Shown: positions 36,325-51,890 of the stretch, one piece after another
How positions within the stretch are numbered: position 1 is the stretch's first letter
How the letters are laid out: the number at the start of each line of letters is the position of its first letter
IMG/VR virus record: IMGVR_UViG_3300010413_000050
Span: 1-51,890 of that record
Origin: a virus
Length of the DNA: 51,890 nucleotides
Strand: one strand, 5' to 3'
Made by a program: the position numbers and the translations under genes
Notes under the pieces: model-generated
What the model saw: the letters and a program-made list of their open reading frames with translations, nothing else
What the model was told of the DNA's origin: nothing
Databases searched by the model: none

Positions 36325-38061
36325 TTACTCCCTCGTCACGTAGGAACCGGCGGTGTCGTTCCAAGATACTCCCGCTCCAGGCCACGTCGCGTGAGTCGTT
36401 CCGCCAAACGGGAACTTGATTGCACCTGCCGGCGCAAGAATGTCGGTGTTGCCGTCCTTCAGAATGAAGTGGCCGTCTCGGCCGACCTCCAACGAGTAGT
36501 TGCCCGCGCCGAGACCAGAGGCGTTACCCTTCAATGAGTAAGAATAAATAGTCGCCGGACCCTCGACCTTCATCGCAGGTGTGTTAGCCGCCTGCGCGCC
36601 CCGCTCTACCCAGGCATAGTACAAAATCATGTACCCGTCTTCAGTGTTCAGGCCACCGCCGTTGTAGCCCTGCTGTTCGACGTAGAGAGTGTCGAGGTAG
36701 GCGTAGTCGGCTCGAGCCACAATGCATTCTCCGCACATACAGTGCGTGATGTCCGTCGCCTTTCCCAGCGTGAATATCTGATCCCTTGTGGTGATGAGCT
36801 TCAGGTTCGAATCCCACGATTGGACCGACCGATTTCCGAGCGTGTCGGTCTCGACATAGGTCGCTAGGCTGTAGGAACCTTCGAGCCCGGATTGATCCAA
36901 AAGACCGGTCGGCCCCGCTAAATTCCAATAGGATGTGGATATCTCCACGGTGCCGGAGCCGAACGCGGTGTCGACGAAGGAACAGAACGGCGTACGAATG
37001 TCGATGTTCTCCAACACATACGCACTTCGACTGGCGTACGAACTCGTGAACTTGATTCCCGCGATTACAAATTGTGCACCGTATCCTAGACCAAGTCCGA
37101 GAAACGGCTTGGACGACCATTCACCACGGATGTGCATCCGCTTGTTCGTCGAGATCGTTACTGCCTGCTCGACAATCGAGAACGTGTTCCCGACCTGCCA
37201 CGGCGAGCCACCGTCGATGCCTACCCGAATCTCGTCCGTGTCGTTGTAGAAAATGGCAGACATCTCGTTCGCTCTCGGCCCGTTGGCGAACAGCGCGAAC
37301 TTTCCTCGATAGGCGTCGGGCGTCCAGCCCGGCGAGCCGCTCGCCTGAATGTCGTTACCAAAATACATCCACGACCACGCCTGCTGAGTCAGCGGCGTCA
37401 CTGCCGCGATCGTGTGCGGACCCGACAGAGTCGTCGGCGTGAGACCGCTTGCGTCGACCACGATTGTTCCACCGTCAAACCGATGAGCGATGAGGTCCGG
37501 CCAATCGGTATAGGTGCCCGCAGTCGGTCGAATCGTGACGACGTGCTTCACCACATAGGGAACCACGCTAAACGCCTTTGTGAACGTCGCGAACGGTGCC
37601 GACGCCGAACCGTCTCCGGTCGTGTCGCTCCCGCTCGTGCCGTCGACATAGATGTCCATATCCGCAAATGTCTCGCTCATCGAGACCGGCGAGATACCGA
37701 AGCCCTGCGGCTTCAGCTTCACCGGCACTCGCCCTCCGACGGTGCCGCTCTCAATCGCGCGCCCGACTACGAAAGCCGAACCGTCGGCCGGAACCGCGCG
37801 CCCGCTCGAATCGGTCATCACGAGTTCGCCCGCGGAGACGGTGTCGCCGAGCTCGACCTTCGTACTTCCCGAGACGCTCACGACGGCCGGCTGCCCCGTG
37901 TTCGCTTTGTTCTCCAAGACACCGTCGACTACCTCGCCCGCGACGGTACATTTCGAGACCGCGTTCTCCGCCGTAACCTTGACAAATCGAAATTGATGCG
38001 CGGTGAGGTCTTCGGCCGCTACCGCTCCGGGGAGGTTTCTCAAAATGCCTTGATAAGACAT
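36325..38061 (-). CDS. Capsid decoration domain fused to a beta-helix
   Basis: A 578-residue two-part protein. Residues 1-~115 resemble the DUF2190-type capsid decoration protein at 39856-40239: ISLVAAADLSAKQFTFIVV there aligns with AAEDLTAHQFRFVKV here, and VVGVLQNKPEAGQ with VVDGVLENKANTGQ. From ~134, DIYVDGTSGSDTTGDGSAS and PFATFTKAF open a right-handed beta-helix of the pectate-lyase type that runs to near the end. It would display a large spike or enzyme on the capsid. No catalytic residues could be identified. Confidence 0.7.
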   Translation of the reverse strand: MSYQGILRNLPGAVAAEDLTAHQFRFVKVTAENAVSKCTVAGEVVDGVLENKANTGQPAVVSVSGSTKVELGDTVSAGELVMTDSSGRAVPADGSAFVVGRAIESGTVGGRVPVKLKPQGFGISPVSMSETFADMDIYVDGTSGSDTTGDGSASAPFATFTKAFSVVPYVVKHVVTIRPTAGTYTDWPDLIAHRFDGGTIVVDASGLTPTTLSGPHTIAAVTPLTQQAWSWMYFGNDIQASGSPGWTPDAYRGKFALFANGPRANEMSAIFYNDTDEIRVGIDGGSPWQVGNTFSIVEQAVTISTNKRMHIRGEWSSKPFLGLGLGYGAQFVIAGIKFTSSYASRSAYVLENIDIRTPFCSFVDTAFGSGTVEISTSYWNLAGPTGLLDQSGLEGSYSLATYVETDTLGNRSVQSWDSNLKLITTRDQIFTLGKATDITHCMCGECIVARADYAYLDTLYVEQQGYNGGGLNTEDGYMILYYAWVERGAQAANTPAMKVEGPATIYSYSLKGNASGLGAGNYSLEVGRDGHFILKDGNTDILAPAGAIKFPFGGTTHATWPGAGVSWNDTAGSYVTRE

Positions 38062-38879: not shown

Positions 38880-39842
38880 CTAGGACATCACGTTGTTGAA
38901 GAACACGCCGAGGTCGGACGCCACGAGCTTCATGTCGTAGGCGATCGAACCCTCGATCCTGTCCGACTCGTTCTCCTCCATCCGGAACCGCTTGATCCGG
39001 GTGCCCTCGGCCGTCCCGCCGAGGTAGCCGTTCCACGAGAAACAGTACCCGGCGCTCGGTGCCATCAGGCTCGGGCGAGGAGCGGCGTAGTACAGCGCCA
39101 CGTCCTTCGAGTAGATCCAGGACATGACCGCCGTCGCTCCCTCGTTCGCCGTGTCCTCGACCGCCGAGGCCACGACCACGCGGTCGAGCTCGAGAGCGCT
39201 CGCCAACAGGTCGAGCGTGACGATGCCCTTCTGCGTGTACTTGATCCGATCGAGCAGCTCCGTGTGGTCCTGCAGAACGCTCCACACGTCGCGGGAGAGC
39301 GCGAGCACGTTCGGCCGATACCCGGTCTTCTTGTGCATCGCGTCCATCTCGGCCCGAATGTCGGCGAACGGCGTCGAACTCGCCGCGTCCCACAACGGGG
39401 ACACGGTGATGTCGGAGCCCGTCGAGCTGCCGGTCCAGATGCCGGTGGTGAAGAAGTTCGCGGCCCAGTCCTTCTCGCGCTTCAGCGCGAGCCCACGGGT
39501 CACGAACTCCGTCGCCTCGGAATCGAGGTTCAAGGGCGCATCGGCATTGCTGCGGATCTGGTCGTCCACGTCCTTGTGCAGCGCTTGCACCTTGGCAAAG
39601 TACGAGTCCGTGGAGATCTCGTATCCGCTTCCGGCCGACTCCGTGCCGGGCGCGCGATACTGCGCGTCGGTCCGGAACCACTGCTGCTTCGGGTACGTGA
39701 AGTATTGATCGCTCTGCTTCTGGACGGGGATGTTCGGAAACACCTTCGTCGCGATGAAGTCCTCCTGCCGCTGCAGGTAGGCGATCGAGATGTTGGTCAA
39801 CGGTCTGTTGACATGGACGTCACTTGCTGTCGGCTGTGGCAT
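38880..39842 (-). CDS. Major capsid protein
   Basis: A 320-residue capsid protein of the E-like/HK97-fold type. DVHVNRPLTNISIAYLQ, FIATKVFPNIPVQKQ and a C-terminal GVFFNNVMS fit this family. There is a perfect AGGAGGTGA ribosome site, as expected for the most expressed gene. It is flanked by decoration and connector genes. Confidence 0.88.
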   Translation of the reverse strand: MPQPTASDVHVNRPLTNISIAYLQRQEDFIATKVFPNIPVQKQSDQYFTYPKQQWFRTDAQYRAPGTESAGSGYEISTDSYFAKVQALHKDVDDQIRSNADAPLNLDSEATEFVTRGLALKREKDWAANFFTTGIWTGSSTGSDITVSPLWDAASSTPFADIRAEMDAMHKKTGYRPNVLALSRDVWSVLQDHTELLDRIKYTQKGIVTLDLLASALELDRVVVASAVEDTANEGATAVMSWIYSKDVALYYAAPRPSLMAPSAGYCFSWNGYLGGTAEGTRIKRFRMEENESDRIEGSIAYDMKLVASDLGVFFNNVMS

Positions 39843-39855
39843 ATCTCACCTCCTC

Positions 39856-40239
39856 CTAGGTGTTCAGATAGCCGGTCGGCGCGAGTAACATCGTGCCGAT
39901 CTCGCCATCCGCCCCGCCGGACAGAGCTTGTCCGCGAGCGAAGTTTCCGGGTGAAGCGGCTGCCACGGCGACGTCCGCCTTGCCGGCGGTCGTGCTCATG
40001 AGCAGGTCGTCGGGCGTGATGGTCGCGCCGAACTGGATCTTCGTCACGCCTTCGTACGCCACCTCAGCGATCTGCCCCGCCTCGGGTTTGTTCTGGAGAA
40101 CGCCGACGACGTTGCCGCCAGCGGTCGTGTTCGCTGCCGCCTTGCCGTTGCTGTCCACGACGATGAACGTGAACTGCTTCGCAGAGAGGTCCGCAGCGGC
40201 GACGAGCGAGATGCATTTCAAGTCATGTTCGAATGCCAT
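39856..40239 (-). CDS. Capsid decoration/stabilisation protein, DUF2190-like
   Basis: A 127-residue beta-rich protein. ISLVAAADLSAKQFTFIVV and VVGVLQNKPEAGQIAEVAYEG are DUF2190 features. It lies between scaffold and capsid genes. A longer paralog fused to a beta-helix is encoded at 36325-38061. Confidence 0.8.
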   Translation of the reverse strand: MAFEHDLKCISLVAAADLSAKQFTFIVVDSNGKAAANTTAGGNVVGVLQNKPEAGQIAEVAYEGVTKIQFGATITPDDLLMSTTAGKADVAVAAASPGNFARGQALSGGADGEIGTMLLAPTGYLNT

Positions 40240-40248
40240 GTCTCCCTC

Positions 40249-41172
40249 CTATCCCTGCGCCGGGTGCTCGGCGAGGTACTGGTTGTACAGCTCCTTGCCG
40301 CGCGGTGACCCGAGGACCTTCGCGATGGCCTGCTCCTCGGTGAAGTTGATGTCGGTAGACTTCTCGACGAGACCCTTCGCGAGCTTCTCGATCTGACCCC
40401 AGGAGCTCGACTCGGCGCTCTCGCCGAACTTCGCGCCCGCCTCGGCGAAGACCGCCGATTTCTGCAGCGCCTCGGAGGTCGCCTTCATCTGCGCCCACTG
40501 CTTCTCGGCGAGCTTCGCGTCGACCTTCTCCAGCTTGAGGATGAGGTCAGCCTGCTCCTCGGCACTTTGGCCGGGGCAGTAGGAGAGTTCGTCCTTCGCC
40601 TTCGCCACGAGCTCTTGCCGCCTGCGCTCCTCGCGCTCGGTGTCGAGGCTCTTGCGGATCTCCTCGTTCTGCTTCGTGAGCGCGGAGATCTGCTCCTCGT
40701 GCGCCTTGCGGATATCGGCGAGCTGCTTCTCGACTTCGGTCGCCTCGGGCTTCTCCTCGCCCTCCGCCTTCTTGGCCTGCGCCTTCTCCTTCGGCATCGG
40801 GTAGCCCTCCTCCTCCTTCGGTTTCTCTTCGGCCTTCGCCTTCGGTGCGGGGTAGCCCACCAGACCGGCGAGCTTGTCCATCACGTCCTTCGGCAAGACG
40901 TCCTTGTGCGAAGCGAGCAAACGAAGCGCGCCCTTGACCGCCGCGACGGCCTTGTCGTCGAGCTTCGCTTTCGCGATCCACTCGTCGAGCTGCGCCTCTT
41001 CGTCGAGCTCCATCTCCAGGACGGCCTTCAAGACCTCTTCGTAATCCTGCATGATTTGCTCCTTTTCACGTTTGAAAACCGGGAACCGCTTCTTCTTGTT
41101 GGCGCCCCGGTCGACTAAGCTCACCTCGTCGGCGAGCAGATCGGACAGTTCTGTCAACGGCTTGTCGGTCAT
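40249..41172 (-). CDS. Scaffolding-like head protein
   Basis: A 307-residue protein. The N-terminus DEVSLVDRGANKKKRFPVF is the motif seen next to XkdF-type proteases. The middle is Lys/Glu/Ala-rich coiled coil, typical for phage scaffolds, and the C-terminal helix (AIAKVLGSPRGKELYNQYLAEH) may bind capsid. It is coupled by ATGA to the large protease-repair fusion, which probably cleaves it. Confidence 0.76.
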   Translation of the reverse strand: MTDKPLTELSDLLADEVSLVDRGANKKKRFPVFKREKEQIMQDYEEVLKAVLEMELDEEAQLDEWIAKAKLDDKAVAAVKGALRLLASHKDVLPKDVMDKLAGLVGYPAPKAKAEEKPKEEEGYPMPKEKAQAKKAEGEEKPEATEVEKQLADIRKAHEEQISALTKQNEEIRKSLDTEREERRRQELVAKAKDELSYCPGQSAEEQADLILKLEKVDAKLAEKQWAQMKATSEALQKSAVFAEAGAKFGESAESSSWGQIEKLAKGLVEKSTDINFTEEQAIAKVLGSPRGKELYNQYLAEHPAQG

Positions 41173-44100
41173 GTGGTCGGCCTTTCTATGAGATCAATGA
41201 ACGTGACTGAAGGCATCTCCTTTCGAGACATCGGACGTCGAAGACCGAGCCCGCCAGGAGAAAAGCAATTGAGCTTTCCTGCTTTGAATTGCTTCCAAAG
41301 ATCTTCGTCCAACTTCACTCCCATCGGCCAACTGCCAGAATGAATGATGTCGTCACCAAACTTCCGGCGATACACGCGGTGTGGTTCACCGCGCATAGCC
41401 TTGCGGTAGTCTTCGTGCGAGGGGTAAGGCTCTACCCAACTCTCGACCACCGTTGCGTTGGCTTTCTTCTGATGCTGGAGACCTACGACGCGAGACCGTT
41501 CAAGGTATCGGTGCGCGGTCTTCTCAATCTCTTTCGGTGGGTTCCAATCGTCGTGGGCGTCTTCTTCGGGGCCGTTCGTCCCGTATGGGTCGAGGACAAC
41601 TCCGTAAACGATGCGTTTGACTTCGTCCGCCTTGGCGATGGACACCGACTTCGAGACGACCTTGCCGCTCCGCACATCGATGATCTGCGGGCGGTCTCCA
41701 GGCTTCGACCAATAAAGCCAGCGTTGCCGTTTTCTCTTCAGCTCGCTTATGACATCAGCGAGGTCGCGGCTCTCGGCCCACGGCGTCTGGTCTTCCGGCT
41801 TATCAATCAGCCACCGACGCCGCCCGCCGATAGGGGCGAACAGGATTAAGTATCTACCCTTCAAGTGTTTGCCGTCAAGAAAAATTTCTACCGCGTGCTG
41901 CCGCGCCATGCCCATCTCGTACTTGCCGCCGTCCAGCTTGAAGAACTTCGAAGACTTCTCCGCGGTCGCGCCGACCTCCCCCGGGCCAGTGACCAACGGC
42001 TTCCGCGCGCCGGCGTCGAGCCACTCTCTCGGCTGCGCGAGCTTCGGCGATAGCTCGATGTTGTCGCCCTTCTTCCAGCCGATCAGCTTGTCGCCCATCT
42101 CCCGGCCGCGGTTGTCCTCAGTCTTCCCGAGAAACACCGTGAAGCCCCATAGCTCGTCGCCGTTCCCGCTCAACCGCAGGTCGCCGTGTAGCGAGTGGTC
42201 GGTCTTGAGAAGCGCCTCCTCGCCGAGCTTCGTCTCCTCCTCGTCGAGCCCGCGCCAGTGATGTTGATAGGTGAACTCGCCCCTTCCCGTCTTCGGCAAG
42301 GCATCGTTCCAGTTCTTGTCCCAATGCCCGAACGCCGCCGCGGCGCGCGTGCCGCCCTCGGCCATCGGCCGGAGCAACGGCTTCGGCAACTGCTTCGCGA
42401 CCGCCGACTTCCGCAGGCGCTCGCGAATGCGCTGCAACTTCCGCTTCACCTCGCCCGAGTCACCGAACCGCCGGACAGCCGACGGGTGCGGCAGGACGAA
42501 GTCGGCGTTCCGATAGTTGGACACCGCCGCCTCGGCCGTCCGCCCGAGCGCCACGATGATCTCGGGCGCTTTACTATCGAGCTGGTCTTTGAGCCAGTCC
42601 CTCCACTCCTTCACCTCGTCGACCGTCGGCTCGCGCGTCCTGCCCTGCTCGTCCTCGAGCAGCGCCGGCACGGCGTTCGTCAGAAGCACCTCGCTCCGCT
42701 TGAGACCAAGCGGCTTGAGGTACACGTCGTTGAAGGTCTCGCCGCCCGGGCCGGTGAACGGCTCTCGCCGCGCGACCTCGATCCGCCCCGGGCTTGCGCC
42801 GACGAACGCTATCCTCGCGCCCTTCGGCCCGACCGTCGGCACCTCGGGCCTCAACGCCTTGATGACGTTCGCAGGCAGGTACTCCTTGACATTGCCCTTC
42901 TCGTCGACCTCCTTGACCCGTAGCACGAGCTCCTGCGCCGCACGCTTCACCACGTCGTCGACGGTGTCGAGCCCGCCCTCGGCATCGCCGAGCACGCGCG
43001 GCACCCAGGCCGTCAGCGCTACGCCCTGCGGCGCGATGATCTTGTTCACGGTCTCGGCCTCGATGCGCACGAGGTCGCCGGGCCGAAGCCGGCGCCCGGT
43101 CGAAAACGTCTCACCGACCGGCACGAGCTTCTCGGGCGTGAACGTCGCCGGCGTGTCCTTCCCCGGCTTCACGGCGTAGTTGTAGGTCCAGACCCCGCCC
43201 TTTGTCCGGTTCGCCTTCGTCACCTGCGCTGTGAACACCACGGCGTTGTGGAACTTGACCCAGTCGTCTCCGGTGACGTGGTCGAGCTTGTACGGCGAGA
43301 GCATCCTCTTCGCAACGATTCCCTCCGACCCCGGGAGCTTGCGGATCTTCTCGACCGCCTGCTCGATCTCCCCCGGCGTCTTCGCGAGCTGCCCCGGTGC
43401 GACGTTGATCCGCCGCTTCAGATCTGGCACGCCCATCGTCCCGGGTCCGACTTTCTTGAGGACCTCAATCCGAGATTGCAGCGGCTTGCCGTGCAGATCG
43501 CCACCCCACCATAAAACGTCGTAGACGTTCGCGACGAGGTCCGAGTCGTCGGCCTCGTCCTTGCTCGCGAGGTATCCGGCCGCCGCCTCCCTCGGGAGAT
43601 GCTTGCCGCGCTCCCAGCGCTCGAGCTCGGCGACGAGCACGGCGTTCCCGACGGGGAGTTTCTTTACCTCGGCGACGAGGCCGGGCAGGCGGTCGGTGTT
43701 GTCGTCGCCGTCCTCGCTCAAGATAGACACGTCGCTCCCGACCTTGTGGATCTGATGGTTCGCGCCGTCGTACTTTTTCTGAACCCAGGCCGGGAGCCAC
43801 TTCTCCTCGCGCTCGGTGTATAGCTTGACGAGCCCCTCGACGGTCTGCGGCTCCTCGGCGAACGCCGGCCGGGTCGGCTTCGGCTGATAGAAGAAGTGCC
43901 CGGGGACTAGCTCGTCGTTCTTCTTCGAGCGCTCCGCCTGCGCGCGTAGCTCCGCAGTCGCCGCCCGCGCCTGCTTTATCACCCGCTCGCGCTCCTCGTA
44001 CTCGGGAGGCGTACACTCGATCTTCTCGACGTGCGGCTCGCGCCTCCGCACCACCAAGTCAAACATCGGAATGTAGTCGGTGAAACTACCCTGCGGCGCG

Positions 44101-44765
44101 TCGATCAACTGCACCTGCGGCCCGCGCTTGTTCGGACTCAAGAACCGCCGCAACGCCACGCCCAACGACCGCCCGTCGATCCCGTAAGTCCCCGTCTCCG
44201 TGTCGTAGCTCGACCGGACCACAACGTCCACGTCGCCCGGCTTCTCGGCAACCGCCGCGCTCCCCGCGATGCTCACCCAGTCCCGACACAACAAGATCTC
44301 CTCGGGTATCTTCTCCAGCCGCTCGCCGATGAACTTCGGTAGCTCGCCCTTCTTCCCGCGCACGCTGTCCCGCCGCGCCTTCTTCAGCGACTCCAACTCC
44401 TCGACCGCGCGGACCAAGTCCGTTCGCTCGACCTTCCGCCCGCGTCGCTCGCGCTCGGTCTTCACCCACAACGCCGCGTTCACGAATTCCTCGACCGCCT
44501 GCCGTCGTCGCCTCGCGTTCGCGTACCACTGCTGAAGCCTCAACCAGATCGCGTCGAGCTCCTTGTCGTCGACCTCGCGCAACCTCGCGGGCTTGATCTC
44601 GGTAAGCGCCAGCTTCTCGAAAATACCCGGCTCGTCGACCCTCGCCTTCGCGCGCCCTCCCGCACTCGCCCTCGCGCTCTGCACAAGCATCGCATACGCC
44701 CATCCGGGTAAATGCTCCTTCGCCTGCTTCAGCGCCTCTTCGAGATACTCGCGTGTGTGTGCCAT
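41169..44765 (-). CDS. Fusion: nucleotidyltransferase - DNA ligase - UDG - LigD phosphoesterase - XkdF protease
   Basis: A 1198-residue multidomain protein. Residues 1-~155 are helical. About 165-245 is a pol beta-type nucleotidyltransferase (GSAAVAEKPGDVDVVV, then MFDLVV). About 300-510 is an ATP-dependent ligase core: KYDG (adenylation Lys ~331), LVAELE, EGIVAK, WVKFH; an OB-like domain follows to ~600. About 648-790 is a family 4-like uracil-DNA glycosylase (VGASPGR...EPFTG, LLTNAVP, IIVALGRTA, LPHPSA) without the Fe-S cysteines. About 825-1000 is a LigD-type 3'-phosphoesterase (TDHSLHGDLRL, ELWGFTV, LKGRYLILFAP). About 1050-1198 is an XkdF head-protease domain (YGVVLDP, RVVGLQHQ, SGSWPMGVKL). 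It sits in the protease slot between minor head and scaffold genes. A GTG three bases upstream could also start it. Confidence 0.82.
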   Translation of the reverse strand: MAHTREYLEEALKQAKEHLPGWAYAMLVQSARASAGGRAKARVDEPGIFEKLALTEIKPARLREVDDKELDAIWLRLQQWYANARRRRQAVEEFVNAALWVKTERERRGRKVERTDLVRAVEELESLKKARRDSVRGKKGELPKFIGERLEKIPEEILLCRDWVSIAGSAAVAEKPGDVDVVVRSSYDTETGTYGIDGRSLGVALRRFLSPNKRGPQVQLIDAPQGSFTDYIPMFDLVVRRREPHVEKIECTPPEYEERERVIKQARAATAELRAQAERSKKNDELVPGHFFYQPKPTRPAFAEEPQTVEGLVKLYTEREEKWLPAWVQKKYDGANHQIHKVGSDVSILSEDGDDNTDRLPGLVAEVKKLPVGNAVLVAELERWERGKHLPREAAAGYLASKDEADDSDLVANVYDVLWWGGDLHGKPLQSRIEVLKKVGPGTMGVPDLKRRINVAPGQLAKTPGEIEQAVEKIRKLPGSEGIVAKRMLSPYKLDHVTGDDWVKFHNAVVFTAQVTKANRTKGGVWTYNYAVKPGKDTPATFTPEKLVPVGETFSTGRRLRPGDLVRIEAETVNKIIAPQGVALTAWVPRVLGDAEGGLDTVDDVVKRAAQELVLRVKEVDEKGNVKEYLPANVIKALRPEVPTVGPKGARIAFVGASPGRIEVARREPFTGPGGETFNDVYLKPLGLKRSEVLLTNAVPALLEDEQGRTREPTVDEVKEWRDWLKDQLDSKAPEIIVALGRTAEAAVSNYRNADFVLPHPSAVRRFGDSGEVKRKLQRIRERLRKSAVAKQLPKPLLRPMAEGGTRAAAAFGHWDKNWNDALPKTGRGEFTYQHHWRGLDEEETKLGEEALLKTDHSLHGDLRLSGNGDELWGFTVFLGKTEDNRGREMGDKLIGWKKGDNIELSPKLAQPREWLDAGARKPLVTGPGEVGATAEKSSKFFKLDGGKYEMGMARQHAVEIFLDGKHLKGRYLILFAPIGGRRRWLIDKPEDQTPWAESRDLADVISELKRKRQRWLYWSKPGDRPQIIDVRSGKVVSKSVSIAKADEVKRIVYGVVLDPYGTNGPEEDAHDDWNPPKEIEKTAHRYLERSRVVGLQHQKKANATVVESWVEPYPSHEDYRKAMRGEPHRVYRRKFGDDIIHSGSWPMGVKLDEDLWKQFKAGKLNCFSPGGLGLRRPMSRKEMPSVTFIDLIERPTT

Positions 44766-45820
44766 CACTCAACCCTCTCTAAAGTCTCCGTGCAGCGGCA
44801 GCCCGGATGTGCTTCTTCGCCCGGCATCTCTACTGCTCCGATGTACATGCTCTCATAAGGCTCGTTCAGCTTCGCCGTCTTGCCGTCCAACTCCAAACAG
44901 ATTTCACATGGAGCCTCGGGGTTCCCCGACGGCCCGGCGCTCAACCAGCGCCGCTGTACTTCGGGCAACGCGCCCGACTCCTGCGCAACGCGCCAGGCAT
45001 CGTTCCGTCCCTGCGCCTGCGCGGTTATCGTCTCGGTCCTCGCGATCATCTGCGCGCGCTTCCCGAGCAGCTCGTCGCGATACCTCGCGCCCTTCTCCTG
45101 TACCTCGGTCTCGCTGAACCCCGCCGTCCTCAACGCCTCCTTGCGGTTGACCACGGCCTTGTTCCATCGTTTCGTCAGCCCGACGTTCTCCTTGATCTCG
45201 TCGAACACCTCCTCGGCCCGCAGGCCGCGCTCGAACGAGTCCGCGAGGATGTCCGTCACCACCTCGCGCTGACTTTTCGAAATCTCGCGGATCAAATGCG
45301 TCGACCGCTCCTCCATCCACTTCACGCTGTACGGGTTCACCGGAACCATCATTCCCCGCGCGGCCGCGGCGACGTCCTCCCGCGCCTTCACTACCTCGGT
45401 CTTCTCGGGCACCGGCTCGGGGTCGACGGAAAACCAAACCTTCGTCTTGAACTTCTTGTTCATGCGCTCGGCCGCGTCGCGCCCGGCCTCGGTCATCACC
45501 GTCGAGTACGCCCGCAGAATCTTCTCGCGAAAGCTCTCCCAGATCGGCGACTCCTCGTCCTGCGCCGTGGGTACCGCCTCGAGCACCTGTACCGGCGACC
45601 CCGTGCGGACCGCGCGCTTCAAGTCTCGCTCGACCTTCGCCGTGTCGAACATTTCCCGAAGCGCCGCGAGGAACGCACGCGCGAACGCGCCCTCGTGCTT
45701 CGCCGCTATCTTGTAGGCGTCACGCCCCTCGGGCGTTCCCGGGTCAGGCTTGTACCACTTCTGTCTTCGGCGCTTGAAGATGCGGACGTACTTGTATTGC
45801 TCGATGAAAGCCACGCTCAC
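44765..45820 (-). CDS. Minor head protein, Mu gpF / SPP1 gp7-like
   Basis: A 351-residue head morphogenesis protein. The C-terminal domain has MIARTETITAQAQGRNDAW, CEICLELDGKTAKLN and HPGCRCTETL, the PF04233 signature (R-T-E ... C-x-x-C ... H-P-x-C-R-C). The GTG at 45820 overlaps the portal stop, and a second GTG lies at 45814. Confidence 0.87.
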   Translation of the reverse strand: MSVAFIEQYKYVRIFKRRRQKWYKPDPGTPEGRDAYKIAAKHEGAFARAFLAALREMFDTAKVERDLKRAVRTGSPVQVLEAVPTAQDEESPIWESFREKILRAYSTVMTEAGRDAAERMNKKFKTKVWFSVDPEPVPEKTEVVKAREDVAAAARGMMVPVNPYSVKWMEERSTHLIREISKSQREVVTDILADSFERGLRAEEVFDEIKENVGLTKRWNKAVVNRKEALRTAGFSETEVQEKGARYRDELLGKRAQMIARTETITAQAQGRNDAWRVAQESGALPEVQRRWLSAGPSGNPEAPCEICLELDGKTAKLNEPYESMYIGAVEMPGEEAHPGCRCTETLERVE

Positions 45821-47259
45821 GCGCTCCGCGGCAGGACGTTCCCGCAGCTCGGACACTTCTTCGGGCTGCCGCCGTACGCCTCGCCACACATCGGACAGTA
45901 CCTCACCGGCGGCCCCTTGCTCGGCACCCCTCCAGGAATCACCTTCGACGTGCGCGCCTTCTGCGTCGGCTCGTCGCTCCCCTCCTCCTTCTCGGGCATC
46001 GGCAACCCCGCTATCTCGAACACCTTGCGCTGCAACGCCTCGCGGTTCTCCGGCAACAAGTCCGTCACCGCAAGCGCCTGCAAGAACGCTCCGAGGTCGG
46101 CCAGCGGTAAGCTCTCGATGTCGCCGTGCACTAACGTCGGCCAAAGCTCGCGCTTGACGCCGTTCGCCTCCATCAACCGCCCGATACCGTACCGCGTGAA
46201 CGTCGACGCGATGCTCCCGAGGTACGCGCCGATCGCTACGCCGAACAGCTCCGTCTGACTCGACGCCAACGCCCACGACCCGACGCTCCCCGTGCCGAGC
46301 TGAAGAAATTGCGCGAGCACGCTCTGAAGAATCGAGTTCTTGTAGTAGGTCTTCACCTTGTCGGTGTCGAACTGCCGCGAACCTCCGGACGTCAATAGCT
46401 TGAACTTGTACCCGGTCGGCTTGTTCTCCTCGTCGACCTCCGGGGGAACGATCGCATACTCACGCTCGTCTCGTCGCACCTGCGCCATCAACGTCTGCAA
46501 CGCAACGACCTGCGCCTTGTCCTCGGCGCTCGCGTCCGGGGAGAGCATCCGTATCGGCACCTCCATCACCGGAAACCCTGCGAGGTCGCGCTCGATACCT
46601 ATCGCCTCGATCTCCGAAATGCGCTTGAGATAAAACCAATCAATCACCGCGTTCCGATACAGGCTCCGGCCCTGCGGGTTGCCCTTCGTCGTCGTCGTCC
46701 GGAACAGCAACGACTTCTCGATCGGCACGAACGCCGACTTCGCGCTGCTCGGGTGCTGCTGATGCATCCCCCTCAACCCGCCGTCCTCGTCGAACTCCCA
46801 ACGATCGAGCGTGTCCTGCGCGCGCAGCGCGAGCTTGCGCCAGCCGATCTTCCCGTCGTCGAACGCCGAGCGCTGCGCCGCGTCCCGCGCGTCCGGTCCA
46901 CGCCTCACCTTGTACACCTCCTCGAACAACGCCCAGCCGTACTTGAACATGCTCAGGACCTCGGTGATGAAATCCTCGAACGTGTGGCTCATGTCGGTGA
47001 TGCAGCCCTCGACGAACTCGGCCTGGTCCCGCGCCTCCTTGCTCGGCTCGCTCGGCTCAACGCGCCAGTCGACTTGTCGCACTAGCGCTTCGAAAAGATA
47101 CTGAATCGCGCCGATGGTCGACGAGTTGTCGCTCATCTCGCGATAGATCTTCTGGCCGAAGTCGCCGCGCAGCTTGAGGTGGAACTCCTCGTCGATGATT
47201 CCCCCGAACTGCTTCAGACCACTGAACCCGAGCGTCTTGAAATCAACCTTCTTCGGCAT
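45817..47259 (-). CDS. Portal protein, DUF935-like, with C-terminal zinc ribbon
   Basis: A 480-residue portal. SSTIGAIQYLFEALVRQVDWRVE, FEDFITEVLSMFKYGWALFEEVY and NPQGRSLYRNAVIDWFYLKR fit DUF935 (Mu gp29-like) portals. The last ~30 residues add RYCPMCGEAYGG and KKCPSCGN, a four-Cys zinc ribbon not usual in portals. The ATG at 47259 has GAAGGGA upstream. It lies between terminase and minor head genes. Confidence 0.87.
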   Translation of the reverse strand: MPKKVDFKTLGFSGLKQFGGIIDEEFHLKLRGDFGQKIYREMSDNSSTIGAIQYLFEALVRQVDWRVEPSEPSKEARDQAEFVEGCITDMSHTFEDFITEVLSMFKYGWALFEEVYKVRRGPDARDAAQRSAFDDGKIGWRKLALRAQDTLDRWEFDEDGGLRGMHQQHPSSAKSAFVPIEKSLLFRTTTTKGNPQGRSLYRNAVIDWFYLKRISEIEAIGIERDLAGFPVMEVPIRMLSPDASAEDKAQVVALQTLMAQVRRDEREYAIVPPEVDEENKPTGYKFKLLTSGGSRQFDTDKVKTYYKNSILQSVLAQFLQLGTGSVGSWALASSQTELFGVAIGAYLGSIASTFTRYGIGRLMEANGVKRELWPTLVHGDIESLPLADLGAFLQALAVTDLLPENREALQRKVFEIAGLPMPEKEEGSDEPTQKARTSKVIPGGVPSKGPPVRYCPMCGEAYGGSPKKCPSCGNVLPRSA

Positions 47260-47275
47260 GTGCTGTCCCTTCTCG

Positions 47276-48682
47276 CTATGCGCTGGCCCGCGCGAAATCC
47301 GTCGGCCGCGTCCTCGTCCCCTCAAGCGGTATCACAATATTCGAAACCGAACGCCGCGACAACCGCGAAAGCGCCATCGTCATCGCGTCAACCTGGTCGT
47401 CGTTCTTCGCGTTCGGAAAGCTGATCGCCTCGTGCAAGAAATCTCGCATCCACGGCTTGCCCTCGGGTAGATACACGTTCCCCGCCTCGATGAGCCCGCT
47501 CACCGCGATGAGCCGCGCCTCCTTGCTGCCCCTCGGCGGGATGCCGACCACGCCGTCAAGCTCGCTCTTCAACGTCGCTATTACCGCCTCACCGTTCGCC
47601 GCCTTCTCGACGATCTTCTCGCGCGCCTTCGGGTGCTTCGCCGACATGCCGCGGATCGCGTCCAGCGTCCCGGGGAAGTCGACCTTCATCCGGAACTGGT
47701 CGACGAGGTAATAGTTCGGCCGCGTGTACCCCCACACCTGCCCGACGACGTAGGACGTGCCCACCGTGAACGTGAGGTCCCAGGACTGAATGACGCGCGA
47801 GAACGTCGGCGGCTCGCGGTACCACTTGAACCAGTCGCGCTTGAGCACGCCGCCCTCCGGCGGCGCGGGGTGCTGCTGATACAGACCGCTGAACAAGTAC
47901 GTGCCCATGCCCTCCCCGGGCGCCGAACGAATCCTCTCGAGCGCTTCACGGTCGAACCGCTCGGGGCATAGCGGCGCGCCAGGCTCGCGACCGAGCGGGT
48001 CGTCGTCCTCGGCCAGCGCCGGCAACGCGACGAGCTCCCAGTCGTCCGCGTGCTCGTTCACGAGATACCCGGTGAGGTCCTCCTCGTGCCAGCGCGTCAT
48101 TATGATCACGATGCTCCCGCCCGGCTCGAGCCGCGTGTACAGGTCCGCGTTGAACCGCTCGACAATCTTCCGACGGATGGTCGGCGAGCTCGCCTCCTCC
48201 CAGTCCTTATGTGGGTCGTCGATGATTATCAGGTCGCCGCCTCGGCCAGTGATCCCGCCCTGCGCGCCGGCGGTCTTCATCCCGCCGCCCTCTACCGTCT
48301 CCCAGTCGTCCTCGCGCGACTTGGCCCGGGACACCTTCGTCACGAGCAGCGGGTTGCGCTCGAACTCCTCGCGCACCTTCCGGCCCCACCCCGCGGCGAA
48401 GCTGTCCGCGTACGACGTGAGCAGCACGCGGCGCTCGGGAAACCACTCGAGGAACCACGTCGGAAGCCAGTGCGAGAACGACTCCGACTTGCCGTGTCGC
48501 GGCGGGGCGTTGATGATTATCCGCGCGCCGCCGTGGAGGATGCTCGGCTGTATCGCGCGGAGCAGCGCGTCGAGCCAGCGGTACGGCTTCCACGCGCCGC
48601 CTGACGCCTTCGCCGCGAACCGAGGCAAGACCATCCTCCAACTGTATCGAAGCGCGTCAGCGCGCGACAGGGCGGCGCTCAT
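47276..48682 (-). CDS. terL: Terminase large subunit
   Basis: A 468-residue packaging motor. ATPase: NAPPRHGKSES (Walker A, ~59), LIIIDDPHKD (Walker B), IMTRWHEEDL. Nuclease: VIQSWDLTFTV and NAKNDDQVDAM. The intact set indicates an active motor and nuclease. The ATG overlaps the small-subunit stop. Confidence 0.93.
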   Translation of the reverse strand: MSAALSRADALRYSWRMVLPRFAAKASGGAWKPYRWLDALLRAIQPSILHGGARIIINAPPRHGKSESFSHWLPTWFLEWFPERRVLLTSYADSFAAGWGRKVREEFERNPLLVTKVSRAKSREDDWETVEGGGMKTAGAQGGITGRGGDLIIIDDPHKDWEEASSPTIRRKIVERFNADLYTRLEPGGSIVIIMTRWHEEDLTGYLVNEHADDWELVALPALAEDDDPLGREPGAPLCPERFDREALERIRSAPGEGMGTYLFSGLYQQHPAPPEGGVLKRDWFKWYREPPTFSRVIQSWDLTFTVGTSYVVGQVWGYTRPNYYLVDQFRMKVDFPGTLDAIRGMSAKHPKAREKIVEKAANGEAVIATLKSELDGVVGIPPRGSKEARLIAVSGLIEAGNVYLPEGKPWMRDFLHEAISFPNAKNDDQVDAMTMALSRLSRRSVSNIVIPLEGTRTRPTDFARASA

Positions 48683-49708: not shown

Positions 49709-51890
49709 GTGCGGACCAGTCTCACTTTCACGTACTACAAAACGGCGTTCACAAACCAAGGACAATCGATATCGCGATCATGGGAAACATGGCGCGACGT
49801 TCTTTCGAAACATGAAATCAGAGGAAAACCGTCCGATCGCGCCGCCTCGAAAGACGTTCTCGACAAACAGAAAGACGGCCCGGCACTCGTTTTTGGCCAC
49901 ATCCCCCCACATCTCCCCCGATCGAAGCACAACACCCAATTCGCCGACGCACTCGTCCTCGACCTCGACGGGCTCGACGATCGCGCGCTCGAAAAAGTCC
50001 TAGAACGTCTTCGTCCCTTCGAGTTCGTCGTGTACTCCTCATATACTCACGGCGCCGACATCGCCCGCGGACTCTGGAAGCTCCGCGTCGTCGCGCCGCT
50101 TGCGGTCTCGGTGCCTCGGGCCGACTTCCCAAAGGTATGGTTCGCCTGGAACAACTTCACGTTTCGCTCGACCGATCCCGCGACCAAAGACGTCTCGAGG
50201 CTCTACTACCTCCCGGCGACCTTCGATCCCACCCTCGCCGTGACGTTCCACAACGAAGGGCGCTGGCTCGACCCTTGGAAAGACCTGCCCGTTCAGGCCG
50301 TAGCGGCTCAAGACAGCCCCGGCGAGAGCCCCGCGCTGATCCGCATCCGCAAGGGACTGCAACGCGCCGAGGGGGTGTTAGACAAGGACAAGCCCGCCTT
50401 CAAGGCCCTCGCCGACGGGCTCCCTTTTGCCGAGCCCGACAGCGAGAAACGCCACATCGACATGAGAACCATGACCTGGTGGCTTGCCGACCGCGACTCC
50501 TGCCTCTCCCGTGCCTCGATCAACGCCATCTTCGGCCCGTCGATCTCCACGATGCTCGAGCAGGCGTCCGACGCGCCGACGCTCGATCAGGTCTGGTCGG
50601 CATACGAGACCGCGGTCGAGAAGCTCGCCGACGAACGCGAGACCCGAGCTCGCGCCGTGCAGCGCAAGCACGCCGGCGACGCCTACTCCGCCGAGGAGCT
50701 CGAGCGCATCGCCGAGAAGCAGGGCTGGACGATGGAGAAGCTCTCGAGGTTGTGGGTGGTACAAAAAGACGGCGCCGCGTGGTTCCTCGATGAGAACGGA
50801 GAGTATCGAGGCCCGTTCGGCCGCGACGACCTTCTCATGGCGTGTCGTCGGTTTCTACCTCGTACCGAGGCGCGGCTTGTAGAAATCACCCGTGCGGGCG
50901 CCAAGCCTCGCGCCCCGGCGACGGTGATGGCGGAGGTCGGGACGCTCGCGAACAAAGTGGTCTGCGACCTGACCGCGCAGTACACCCGGTTCAACGCCGA
51001 CTCGGGGACGATGTTCGAGGCGACCGCGCCGGTCCGGACCGACCTCGAGCCCCGGTATCACGAGAAGGTCGACAAATGGCTGCAAGTGCTCGGAGGTAGA
51101 CACTACGAGAAGTTGAAGGCGTGGCTCGCGGTCCTGCCCGACTTGAACAGGATGCTTTGCGCGATCTACTTCGACGGCCCGAAAGGCGTGGGCAAGTCGA
51201 TGTTCGCCCGCGGAGCCTCGGCGCTGTGGTCAGAGACCGCGACCCCCGGCGACATTGAGCTCTTTCTCGGGTCGTTCAACGATACCGTGGCCATGTGCCC
51301 GTTGATATTCGCCGACGAGGACCTCCCAAAGCATGCGACGAGGGACGTCACAGCGAAGTTGAGGGAGGAGCTCGCGAAGACCTCGCGACAGCTCAAGAGA
51401 AAGTTCCGGCACCCGGCCGAGATGCGAGGGGCGATCCGGCTGACGCTCGCGGCGAACAACGAGCTTTTGATCGCCGTGCAAAAGGCGATGACGCCGAACG
51501 ACCTCGAGGCGTTCGCCGAGCGGTTTTTGTACATCCGGATTCCCGACGAGATGAAGGACTACTTCAAGGGCTGGGAGCGGCGCGAGGTCGAGCGGATGAT
51601 CGTGCGCGACATTGCCGAGCACGCGCTGCACCTCCACGCGACGATCGCGGTCGAGGATTCCGAGTCGCGGTTCGCCGTGAAGGGCGACGTCGACGACATC
51701 CATCAACTATTTCTGACGAGCGGGCAGATCAACGGTCTTGTTTGCGAGTGGCTCGTGAAGTTCTTGATGAACCCCACACCATACAACCGGGAGAGCAACA
51801 CGGCAGGGCTCGTGAGGTGCGATGCGAAGGAGCAGCGGCTTTTGGCGAACCCGCAGGGCATCGCGGACAACTGGTCTTCGTACATCAAAG
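49709..51890 (+). CDS. DNA primase/helicase (AEP-like primase + SF3 helicase), continues at 3-512
   Basis: The main replication initiator-type protein, 849 residues when joined across the circle. N-terminal ~60-190: an archaeo-eukaryotic-type primase pattern (ALVLDLDGLDD with the D-x-D, then YSSYTHG, LRVVAPL, and VSRLYYLP). A helical linker follows. The C-terminal part is a superfamily 3 helicase: Walker A FDGPKGVGKS (~488-497), Walker B PLIFADED (~535), motif C LTLAANNE. GTG at 49709 has GGAGA six bases upstream. It is the first gene of the early operon, behind a promoter and a 125-base structured leader. Confidence 0.87.
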   Translation, partial: MRTSLTFTYYKTAFTNQGQSISRSWETWRDVLSKHEIRGKPSDRAASKDVLDKQKDGPALVFGHIPPHLPRSKHNTQFADALVLDLDGLDDRALEKVLERLRPFEFVVYSSYTHGADIARGLWKLRVVAPLAVSVPRADFPKVWFAWNNFTFRSTDPATKDVSRLYYLPATFDPTLAVTFHNEGRWLDPWKDLPVQAVAAQDSPGESPALIRIRKGLQRAEGVLDKDKPAFKALADGLPFAEPDSEKRHIDMRTMTWWLADRDSCLSRASINAIFGPSISTMLEQASDAPTLDQVWSAYETAVEKLADERETRARAVQRKHAGDAYSAEELERIAEKQGWTMEKLSRLWVVQKDGAAWFLDENGEYRGPFGRDDLLMACRRFLPRTEARLVEITRAGAKPRAPATVMAEVGTLANKVVCDLTAQYTRFNADSGTMFEATAPVRTDLEPRYHEKVDKWLQVLGGRHYEKLKAWLAVLPDLNRMLCAIYFDGPKGVGKSMFARGASALWSETATPGDIELFLGSFNDTVAMCPLIFADEDLPKHATRDVTAKLREELAKTSRQLKRKFRHPAEMRGAIRLTLAANNELLIAVQKAMTPNDLEAFAERFLYIRIPDEMKDYFKGWERREVERMIVRDIAEHALHLHATIAVEDSESRFAVKGDVDDIHQLFLTSGQINGLVCEWLVKFLMNPTPYNRESNTAGLVRCDAKEQRLLANPQGIADNWSSYIK
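51747..51890. repeat. Terminal redundancy of a circular genome, right copy
   Basis: Identical to 1-144. Merging the two copies closes the circle inside the primase/helicase gene in frame. Confidence 0.93.

Follow-up and report, generated by a model that had tools for sequence, protein, structure and literature searches.

Polyvalent proteins with an assemblin-like peptidase at their C terminus are known, and in the sections of PMC5512222 considered here this peptidase is always C-terminal; Nudix domains fused to a head peptidase are likewise described in the corresponding sections of PMC9503650. For Nudix and other enzymes joined to head peptidases, both sources infer co-assembly with the head in these sections, and neither mentions there a DNA ligase, a uracil-DNA glycosylase (UDG) or a phosphoesterase (PE) of the LigD type at this position. 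Here, we analysed the IMG/VR virus record IMGVR_UViG_3300010413_000050 over its whole length of 51,890 bp (hereafter the window), in which a single open reading frame (ORF) encodes a putative minimal nucleotidyltransferase (MNT), an ATP-dependent DNA ligase, a UDG-like domain, a LigD-type PE and an XkdF head maturation protease in one chain. We propose, with a probability of about 0.55, that this head protease with its N-terminally fused DNA-processing kit is a virion-carried polyvalent DNA-repair polyprotein.

The whole fusion is encoded by one ORF on the minus strand (41169-44768), which gives 1199 aa from a GTG or 1198 aa from an ATG, and the plus strand carries 12 stops across the same interval. 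The ATG at 44765 overlaps the stop codon of the MuF-like gene as TGATG, with AGAGGG upstream, and is the likelier start. With this ATG, the coordinates and the uninterrupted 1198-codon frame reported in the initial annotation of this DNA were correct, the frame lying on the minus strand. Residues are numbered throughout on the 1199-aa (GTG) version, and the fusion is divided as follows.

41169..44768, minus strand: fusion protein, MNT-like / ligase / UDG-like / PE / XkdF protease (ORF and domain searches)
44349..44768, minus strand: N-terminal helical domain, residues 1-140, of no named family (AlphaFold; conserved in alignment)
43983..44336, minus strand: putative MNT region, residues 145-262, with G169, D179, D181 and D237 (motif conservation)
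42975..43910, minus strand: ATP-dependent DNA ligase nucleotidyltransferase core and C-terminal extension (inferred OB fold), residues 287-598 (Pfam, alignment, PDB profile)
42402..42851, minus strand: UDG-superfamily domain, residues 640-789, with A658 replacing the motif-A Glu, N698 and H761
41844..42284, minus strand: LigD-type 3'-PE, residues 829-975, with Q835, H837, H861, D863 and R865
41214..41651, minus strand: XkdF / Peptidase_S78_2 head maturation protease, residues 1040-1185, with H1099 and S1170

Judged from its sequence and gene position, the C-terminal domain is the head maturation protease of this phage, and proteolysis is predicted. Pfam Peptidase_S78_2/XkdF matched residues 1043-1173 (E=1.5e-15, above the curated cut-off), the predicted fold of the domain matched XkdF models, and the catalytic H1099 and S1170 were invariant in alignments of 9 and 19 sequences. 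The gene lies in the protease slot between portal/MuF and scaffold/major capsid protein, in the same order as in relatives, and the fusion is both the sole XkdF-type head protease and the sole recognisable ligase found in the genome.

In the ligase segment, Pfam DNA_ligase_A_M matched residues 327-506 (E=3.5e-17, above the curated cut-off), and nucleotidyl-transfer motifs I, III, IIIa, IV and V were all present. Nine residues (K332, D334, G335, E381, D417, E482, G483, K487 and K505) were invariant among 12 divergent members, and about 90 further residues were conserved in the alignment beyond the nucleotidyltransferase core, where an OB fold would sit. When a profile of the segment was compared with the PDB, the nearest solved ligases were of the archaeal/LIG1 type (3gde, 2e-22), while LigD was matched at 2e-8. 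The segment is a DNA ligase core of archaeal/LIG1-like character, with predicted ligase activity. Domain searches of the fusion gave no match to the LigD POL (archaeo-eukaryotic-primase-type) domain, and no Ku was found within the 51.9-kb record. Given that POL and Ku are both missing and that the ligase is LIG1-like, membership of the LigD system of non-homologous end joining (NHEJ) was rejected.

The PE was recognised at the level of the family and of the fold. Pfam LigD_N reached only E=0.1 against the window sequence alone (PE region 828-1000), and was matched by 9 of 16 family members, at best with 6.8e-5. A profile of the PE segment matched only three PDB chains, all of them archaeal LigD-type PE (3p4h at 1.6e-4, 3p43 and 5dmp). 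Moreover, an AlphaFold model of residues 801-1199 (pLDDT 83) matched seven PDB structures at E<=1e-3, every one a LigD PE domain, the best being 3p43 (E=1.4e-6, TM 0.79 on the target). The active site of the PaeLigD PE contains the structural Q40, the Mn ligands H42, H48 and D50, and R52 (PMC8656161), which align with Q835, H837, H861, D863 and R865, respectively. Across 19 sequences the last four of these did not vary and Q835 hardly varied, and an insertion of about 17 residues between H837 and H861 is peculiar to the UDG-type clade.

For the UDG-like domain, Pfam UDG matched residues 645-769 (E=1.4e-20, above the curated cut-off), and the profile matched family-4 UDG 4zbx at 1e-17 and UdgX at about 3e-11 among solved structures. 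The pocket of Tth UDGa includes E41, G42, E47, F54, N80 and H155, and substitutions of E41, including alanine, strongly lower its activity (PMC5387724); the counterparts in the window are A658, S659, E664, F671, N698 and H761. H761 of motif B and the adjacent Pro were invariant in 14 aligned members. The window protein has no Cys within its UDG region, indicating that this region holds no Fe-S cluster. With family 4 UDG and UdgX the domain thus shares clear homology, the HP of motif B, the pocket Asn and the acidic residue, but it reads GASPG instead of GExPG in motif A and has neither the Fe-S cysteines nor the KRRIH loop. We conclude that the domain is real, while its glycosylase activity is doubtful because the motif-A Glu and the Fe-S cysteines are lacking.

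At the N terminus, the AlphaFold model was confident for residues 1-140 only, which are helical and conserved across the family. In the region that follows, G169, D179 and D181 were invariant and D237 near-invariant among 21 members, which corresponds to the G-S/G...DxD...D pattern of MNTs. Pfam NTP_transf_2 matched marginally (E=0.024) and in one member only, no PDB profile match was obtained for the region, and pLDDT there was under 50. Residues ~145-262 are, from these motifs, probably a pol-beta-type nucleotidyltransferase. In three relatives (L004, L005 and L010), an optional module of about 100 aa (GGTEVGVARARDLSNRR...WLLWGGDxGxxWA, PHROG 2859, function unknown) was observed between MNT and ligase; the same module stands at the N terminus in L059 and so changes position among fusions.

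The initial annotation had read these enzymes and the protease from the letters of the sequence. Its ligase, LigD-type PE and C-terminal XkdF assignments were borne out, the ligase by the Pfam match and the invariant nucleotidyl-transfer residues, the PE by a family profile and a fold that match LigD PE alone, and the protease by the Pfam match, the retained His and Ser and the position between MuF and scaffold. A LigD-like ligase was not supported. The glycosylase stood as a domain with uracil excision left uncertain, and the pol beta-type nucleotidyltransferase stood in its motifs, with marginal or no backing from profile and fold. With the nucleotidyltransferase graded apart as above, we regard the domain identities as close to certain.

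We then looked at the distribution of the fusion by IMG/VR scans; as these recover a sequence only when it shares the search patterns, abundances are lower bounds. The first scan gave four relatives on separate contigs with 60-65% identity, three full-length and one cut by the contig end. Counting the window, ligase, UDG, PE and XkdF were found together on no fewer than 14 distinct contigs (L010 and L045 being two ends of one contig), and the search for the same fusion in other phages that the initial annotation had called for was thus answered by at least 13 other contigs. The fusion relatives keep the order MuF-fusion-scaffold-capsid, and dN/dS was about 0.1-0.45 in the domains, every one of which is under purifying selection. 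About eleven further contigs carried ligase, PE and XkdF without UDG; the UDG-less members examined had Dam-type or Dcm-like methyltransferase, 2H phosphoesterase or TGT (queuine tRNA-ribosyltransferase)-like modules. Ligase-PE-XkdF fusions with such DNA- or RNA-modification modules were seen in L011, L012, L014, L015, L031-L034 and L037, the TGT-like N terminus being that of L032, to which L033 seems similar. Among cellular sequences, the genome contig scan for cellular or prophage copies gave only a UDG in a Verrucomicrobia metagenome-assembled genome, and the matches listed by tblastn against plasmids were only separate UdgX and LigD.

The protease slot was surveyed by a scan using the capsid protein of the window. 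In this slot, XkdF occurs alone or with unnamed extensions (L072, L075-L078), as ChaB-XkdF (L073), as UDG-XkdF (L066, L067), as UDG-XkdF preceded by a long His-rich N terminus (L049-L054) or by rubrerythrin (L061), as MNT-UDG-PE-XkdF with no ligase (L047), and as the full kit with a methyltransferase-like insert (L055-L057). In the XkdF tree, in which several forks are weak, these architectures require at least 13 changes; the ligase-less L047 nests within the full-kit clade, and L066/L067, which have UDG only, group with L055/L057. These results show that related phages have repeatedly gained and lost enzyme modules on this one protease. His-rich repeats (GxHAHxL...) were also observed between fusion modules or before UDG, at about 455-600 in L029 and about 190-310 in L049, L053 and L054, and are possibly metal-binding.

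The genes around the fusion, all on the same strand, are the following.

47276..48682, minus strand: terminase large subunit
45817..47325, minus strand: portal protein
44765..45787, minus strand: MuF-like head morphogenesis protein
40249..41172, minus strand: scaffold-like protein, 307 aa, opening with the LTELSDLLADEVSLVDRGANKKKRFP motif
39856..40239, minus strand: probable small head (decoration-like) protein, from position and sequence
38880..39842, minus strand: major capsid protein (PHROG 1005, E=4.6e-94)

A contractile tail sheath gene is also among these neighbours, and given this sheath and the head genes around the fusion, the locus is a myovirus head operon. The ends of the record (1-144 and 51747-51890) are identical over 144 bp, and the record is probably a complete genome, circular or terminally redundant; no tRNA genes were found in it. 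We also noted a 578-aa protein at 36325-38061 on the minus strand. Its N-terminal ~120 residues are similar to the small head protein at 39856-40239 (PHROG 673), and a beta-helix-like region comes after them; the protein may decorate the capsid surface and bear a fibre or adhesin domain.

The ATG of the scaffold gene overlaps the fusion stop (ATGA), and this overlap is also present in most close relatives and in Pakpunavirus PaP1. A frameshift joining protease and scaffold was considered, and no slippery heptamer was seen at the overlap by inspection; since the stand-alone XkdF of PaP1 has the same ATGA overlap, translational coupling is the simpler reading. PaP1 gp048 and similar proteins occupy the same slot (portal, XkdF, scaffold, small head protein, major capsid protein) with the same 4-nt overlap, but gp048 has 156 aa and is the protease alone. 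Given the overlap shared with this bare protease, the fusion looks like an ordinary protease gene lengthened at its N terminus. Separately, gp048 (L125, 2902-3372) is annotated 'N6 adenine-specific DNA methyltransferase', for which a stand-alone XkdF of 156 aa is too short, and the 'putative methyltransferase' of KIL1 in the same slot (L126, 2881-3330) looks alike; this label, which is also on PHROG 1530, was plausibly transferred, in error, to many stand-alone head proteases from methyltransferase-XkdF fusions. The EVSLVDRGAN motif was considered as the missing last strand of the protease and dropped, as Lactococcus phage 28201 has a similar motif N-terminal to its protease.

If the fusion acts as we propose, the protease domain would bring the enzymes into the procapsid along with the scaffold. 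Since the enzymes are joined to the sole XkdF-type head protease, and in many phages, the natural interpretation is that they co-assemble into the head; maturation by that protease would therefore need the whole fusion to be made. The earlier statement that the repair enzymes are made with the head agrees with this and with the position between MuF and scaffold, and we find entry of the fusion into the procapsid quite likely. Maturation would then cut the interdomain linkers, perhaps between [VI]xK and [QAST..], the ligase, UDG-like domain and PE remaining inside with the DNA; on balance, we favour such cleavage. The enzymes would leave with the genome at ejection, and in the new cell the PE would heal 3' ends and the ligase would seal the arriving DNA at nicks or ends, while the UDG-like domain may be a uracil- or damage-directed binder or a weak glycosylase. 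The ejection of the enzymes and their repair work in the new host, which we place just short of even odds, are suggested by the polyvalent readings in the sections considered of PMC5512222 and PMC9503650 and by head processing in giant phages (PMC10052503).

The HK97 capsid protein is cleaved at K103/S104 (PMC10275583), and head proteins of SPN3US, some of which are thought to be ejected, are cleaved by its prohead protease (PMC10052503). In UDG-type fusions, 37 of 46 short interdomain linkers contained [VI]xK followed by Q/A/S/T/N/E, against a mean of 7.6 and a maximum of 18 in 1000 shuffles, for a motif that was defined after inspecting the linkers and on related sequences. Its density was 15.4 per 1000 residues in linkers versus 5.0 in domains, and it occurred in 6/6 MNT-ligase, 12/13 ligase-UDG, 13/14 UDG-PE and 6/13 PE-XkdF linkers; similar [VI]xK sites recur in the scaffold. 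We regard this motif as a candidate processing site. The suggestion in the initial annotation that the fused protease cuts the enzymes free has gained a candidate linker site, found post hoc, with cleavage itself still a prediction.

Alternatively, the enzymes could act in the producing cell, tethered at the procapsid interior and portal region, where they would repair DNA during packaging and then be degraded or expelled. Ligation and end-healing would suit nick repair of replicated DNA, the gene lies in a late head operon, and propeptides usually exit the head once a head protease has cut them off (PMC10052503). However, the DNA methyltransferases, 2H phosphoesterases and TGT-like domains of relatives better fit roles in early infection or conflict, and published readings of similar fusions prefer injection, which makes this account unlikely.

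Several observations weigh against a virion-carried repair polyprotein. The second Lys of ligase motif V is H507 in the window protein and K in distant members, and the sulfate-binding H84 and Y88 of PaeLigD have no recognised counterpart in the window PE. In none of the 14 aligned members does motif A of the UDG-like domain contain the Glu; it reads GASP, AASP, GASA or GSAP instead. In L068/L070 the UDG-like domain fused to XkdF is degenerate with the HP motif entirely gone, so that in some phages it appears to be degenerating or non-catalytic. To these are added the post hoc linker motif and the finding of the fusion in no cultured phage of INPHARED. The motif V His, the PE site and the UDG-like domain, with its missing Glu and cysteines and its decay in some relatives, would suit fused domains that mainly form a structural or DNA-binding core, as internal scaffold or genome organisers, with catalysis lost or irrelevant. 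This we judge improbable, given that the Lys/Glu/Asp/Lys set of the ligase and the Q-H-H-D-R set of the PE are invariant or nearly so across very divergent members, and that modules vanish whole and not by erosion.

A counter-defence effector, whose ligase, PE and MNT would target RNA or host nucleotide signals instead of phage DNA, is in keeping with the 2H phosphoesterase and TGT-like modules of relatives and with the interpretation of polyvalent proteins as conflict proteins in the sections considered of PMC5512222. It is very improbable here, as the ligase is DNA-ligase-like (LIG1/archaeal), the PE belongs to a DNA-end-healing family, and UDG and methyltransferases are DNA enzymes. An assembly chimera, chance motifs or an annotation artefact, for which the metagenomic origin and nothing else speaks, is effectively ruled out by the recurrence of this domain order on 13 or more further contigs, which stem from different metagenomes, the conserved gene junctions and the purifying selection.

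Phage DNA arrives in the cell unprotected, ahead of any phage repair proteins. Fusing a repair kit to the head protease, as in the polyprotein proposed here, would be an economical means of sending in ligation and end-healing along with the genome. Tentatively, the head protease of this phage lineage may even be a general loading dock, as a self-processing polyprotein whose N-terminal enzymes (ligase, PE and UDG-like domain, or methyltransferases in relatives) would be cut out in the procapsid at [VI]xK|[QAST..] sites, packaged, injected and put to repair before phage gene expression. The series of relatives (protease alone, with UDG, with PE, with ligase, with methyltransferase) makes the question testable by comparison of homologues, and packaged enzymes might be discovered by checking what the head protease is fused to.

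Compared with bacterial LigD of NHEJ, the window protein likewise joins ligase and 3'-PE in one polypeptide, with the same PE fold and metal residues; unlike LigD, it has no POL and no Ku, carries a LIG1/archaeal-type ligase and is fused to a head protease. In AJP62006 of ANMV-1 virus (KP703175), an MNT-like region, ligase and PE stand in one chain beside the portal gene; among cultured or named viruses, this set was found in ANMV-1 only. Its chain has neither UDG nor XkdF and is annotated solely 'ATP-dependent DNA ligase' (L006, 3200-5800), although it additionally holds the PE domain and the MNT-like region. In the same locus, the 'MutT-like phage hydrolase' (1913-3193) matches portal proteins (PHROG 146, 2e-30). 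The polyvalent proteins of Iyer et al. 2017 (PMC5512222), in the sections considered, are similar as large multidomain chains with several unrelated enzymes and shuffled modules, in terminase-portal phages and with the head peptidase at the C terminus. They differ in that the modules of the window make one coherent DNA-repair set, whose ligase, UDG and LigD-type PE are unnamed in those sections. The fusion has at least two functionally unrelated domains per chain, a variable architecture, a terminase-portal context and a C-terminal peptidase, as polyvalent proteins do. The initial annotation had known of no described phage protein with this combination; no description of a ligase/UDG/PE-head-protease fusion was found in the literature searched, to whose scope subscription journals did not belong, and the statement holds there for the exact combination, with the partial kit of ANMV-1 and the polyvalent class already known. 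These comparisons suggest that the exact ligase/UDG/PE/XkdF combination is apparently new within a general class that has already been described.

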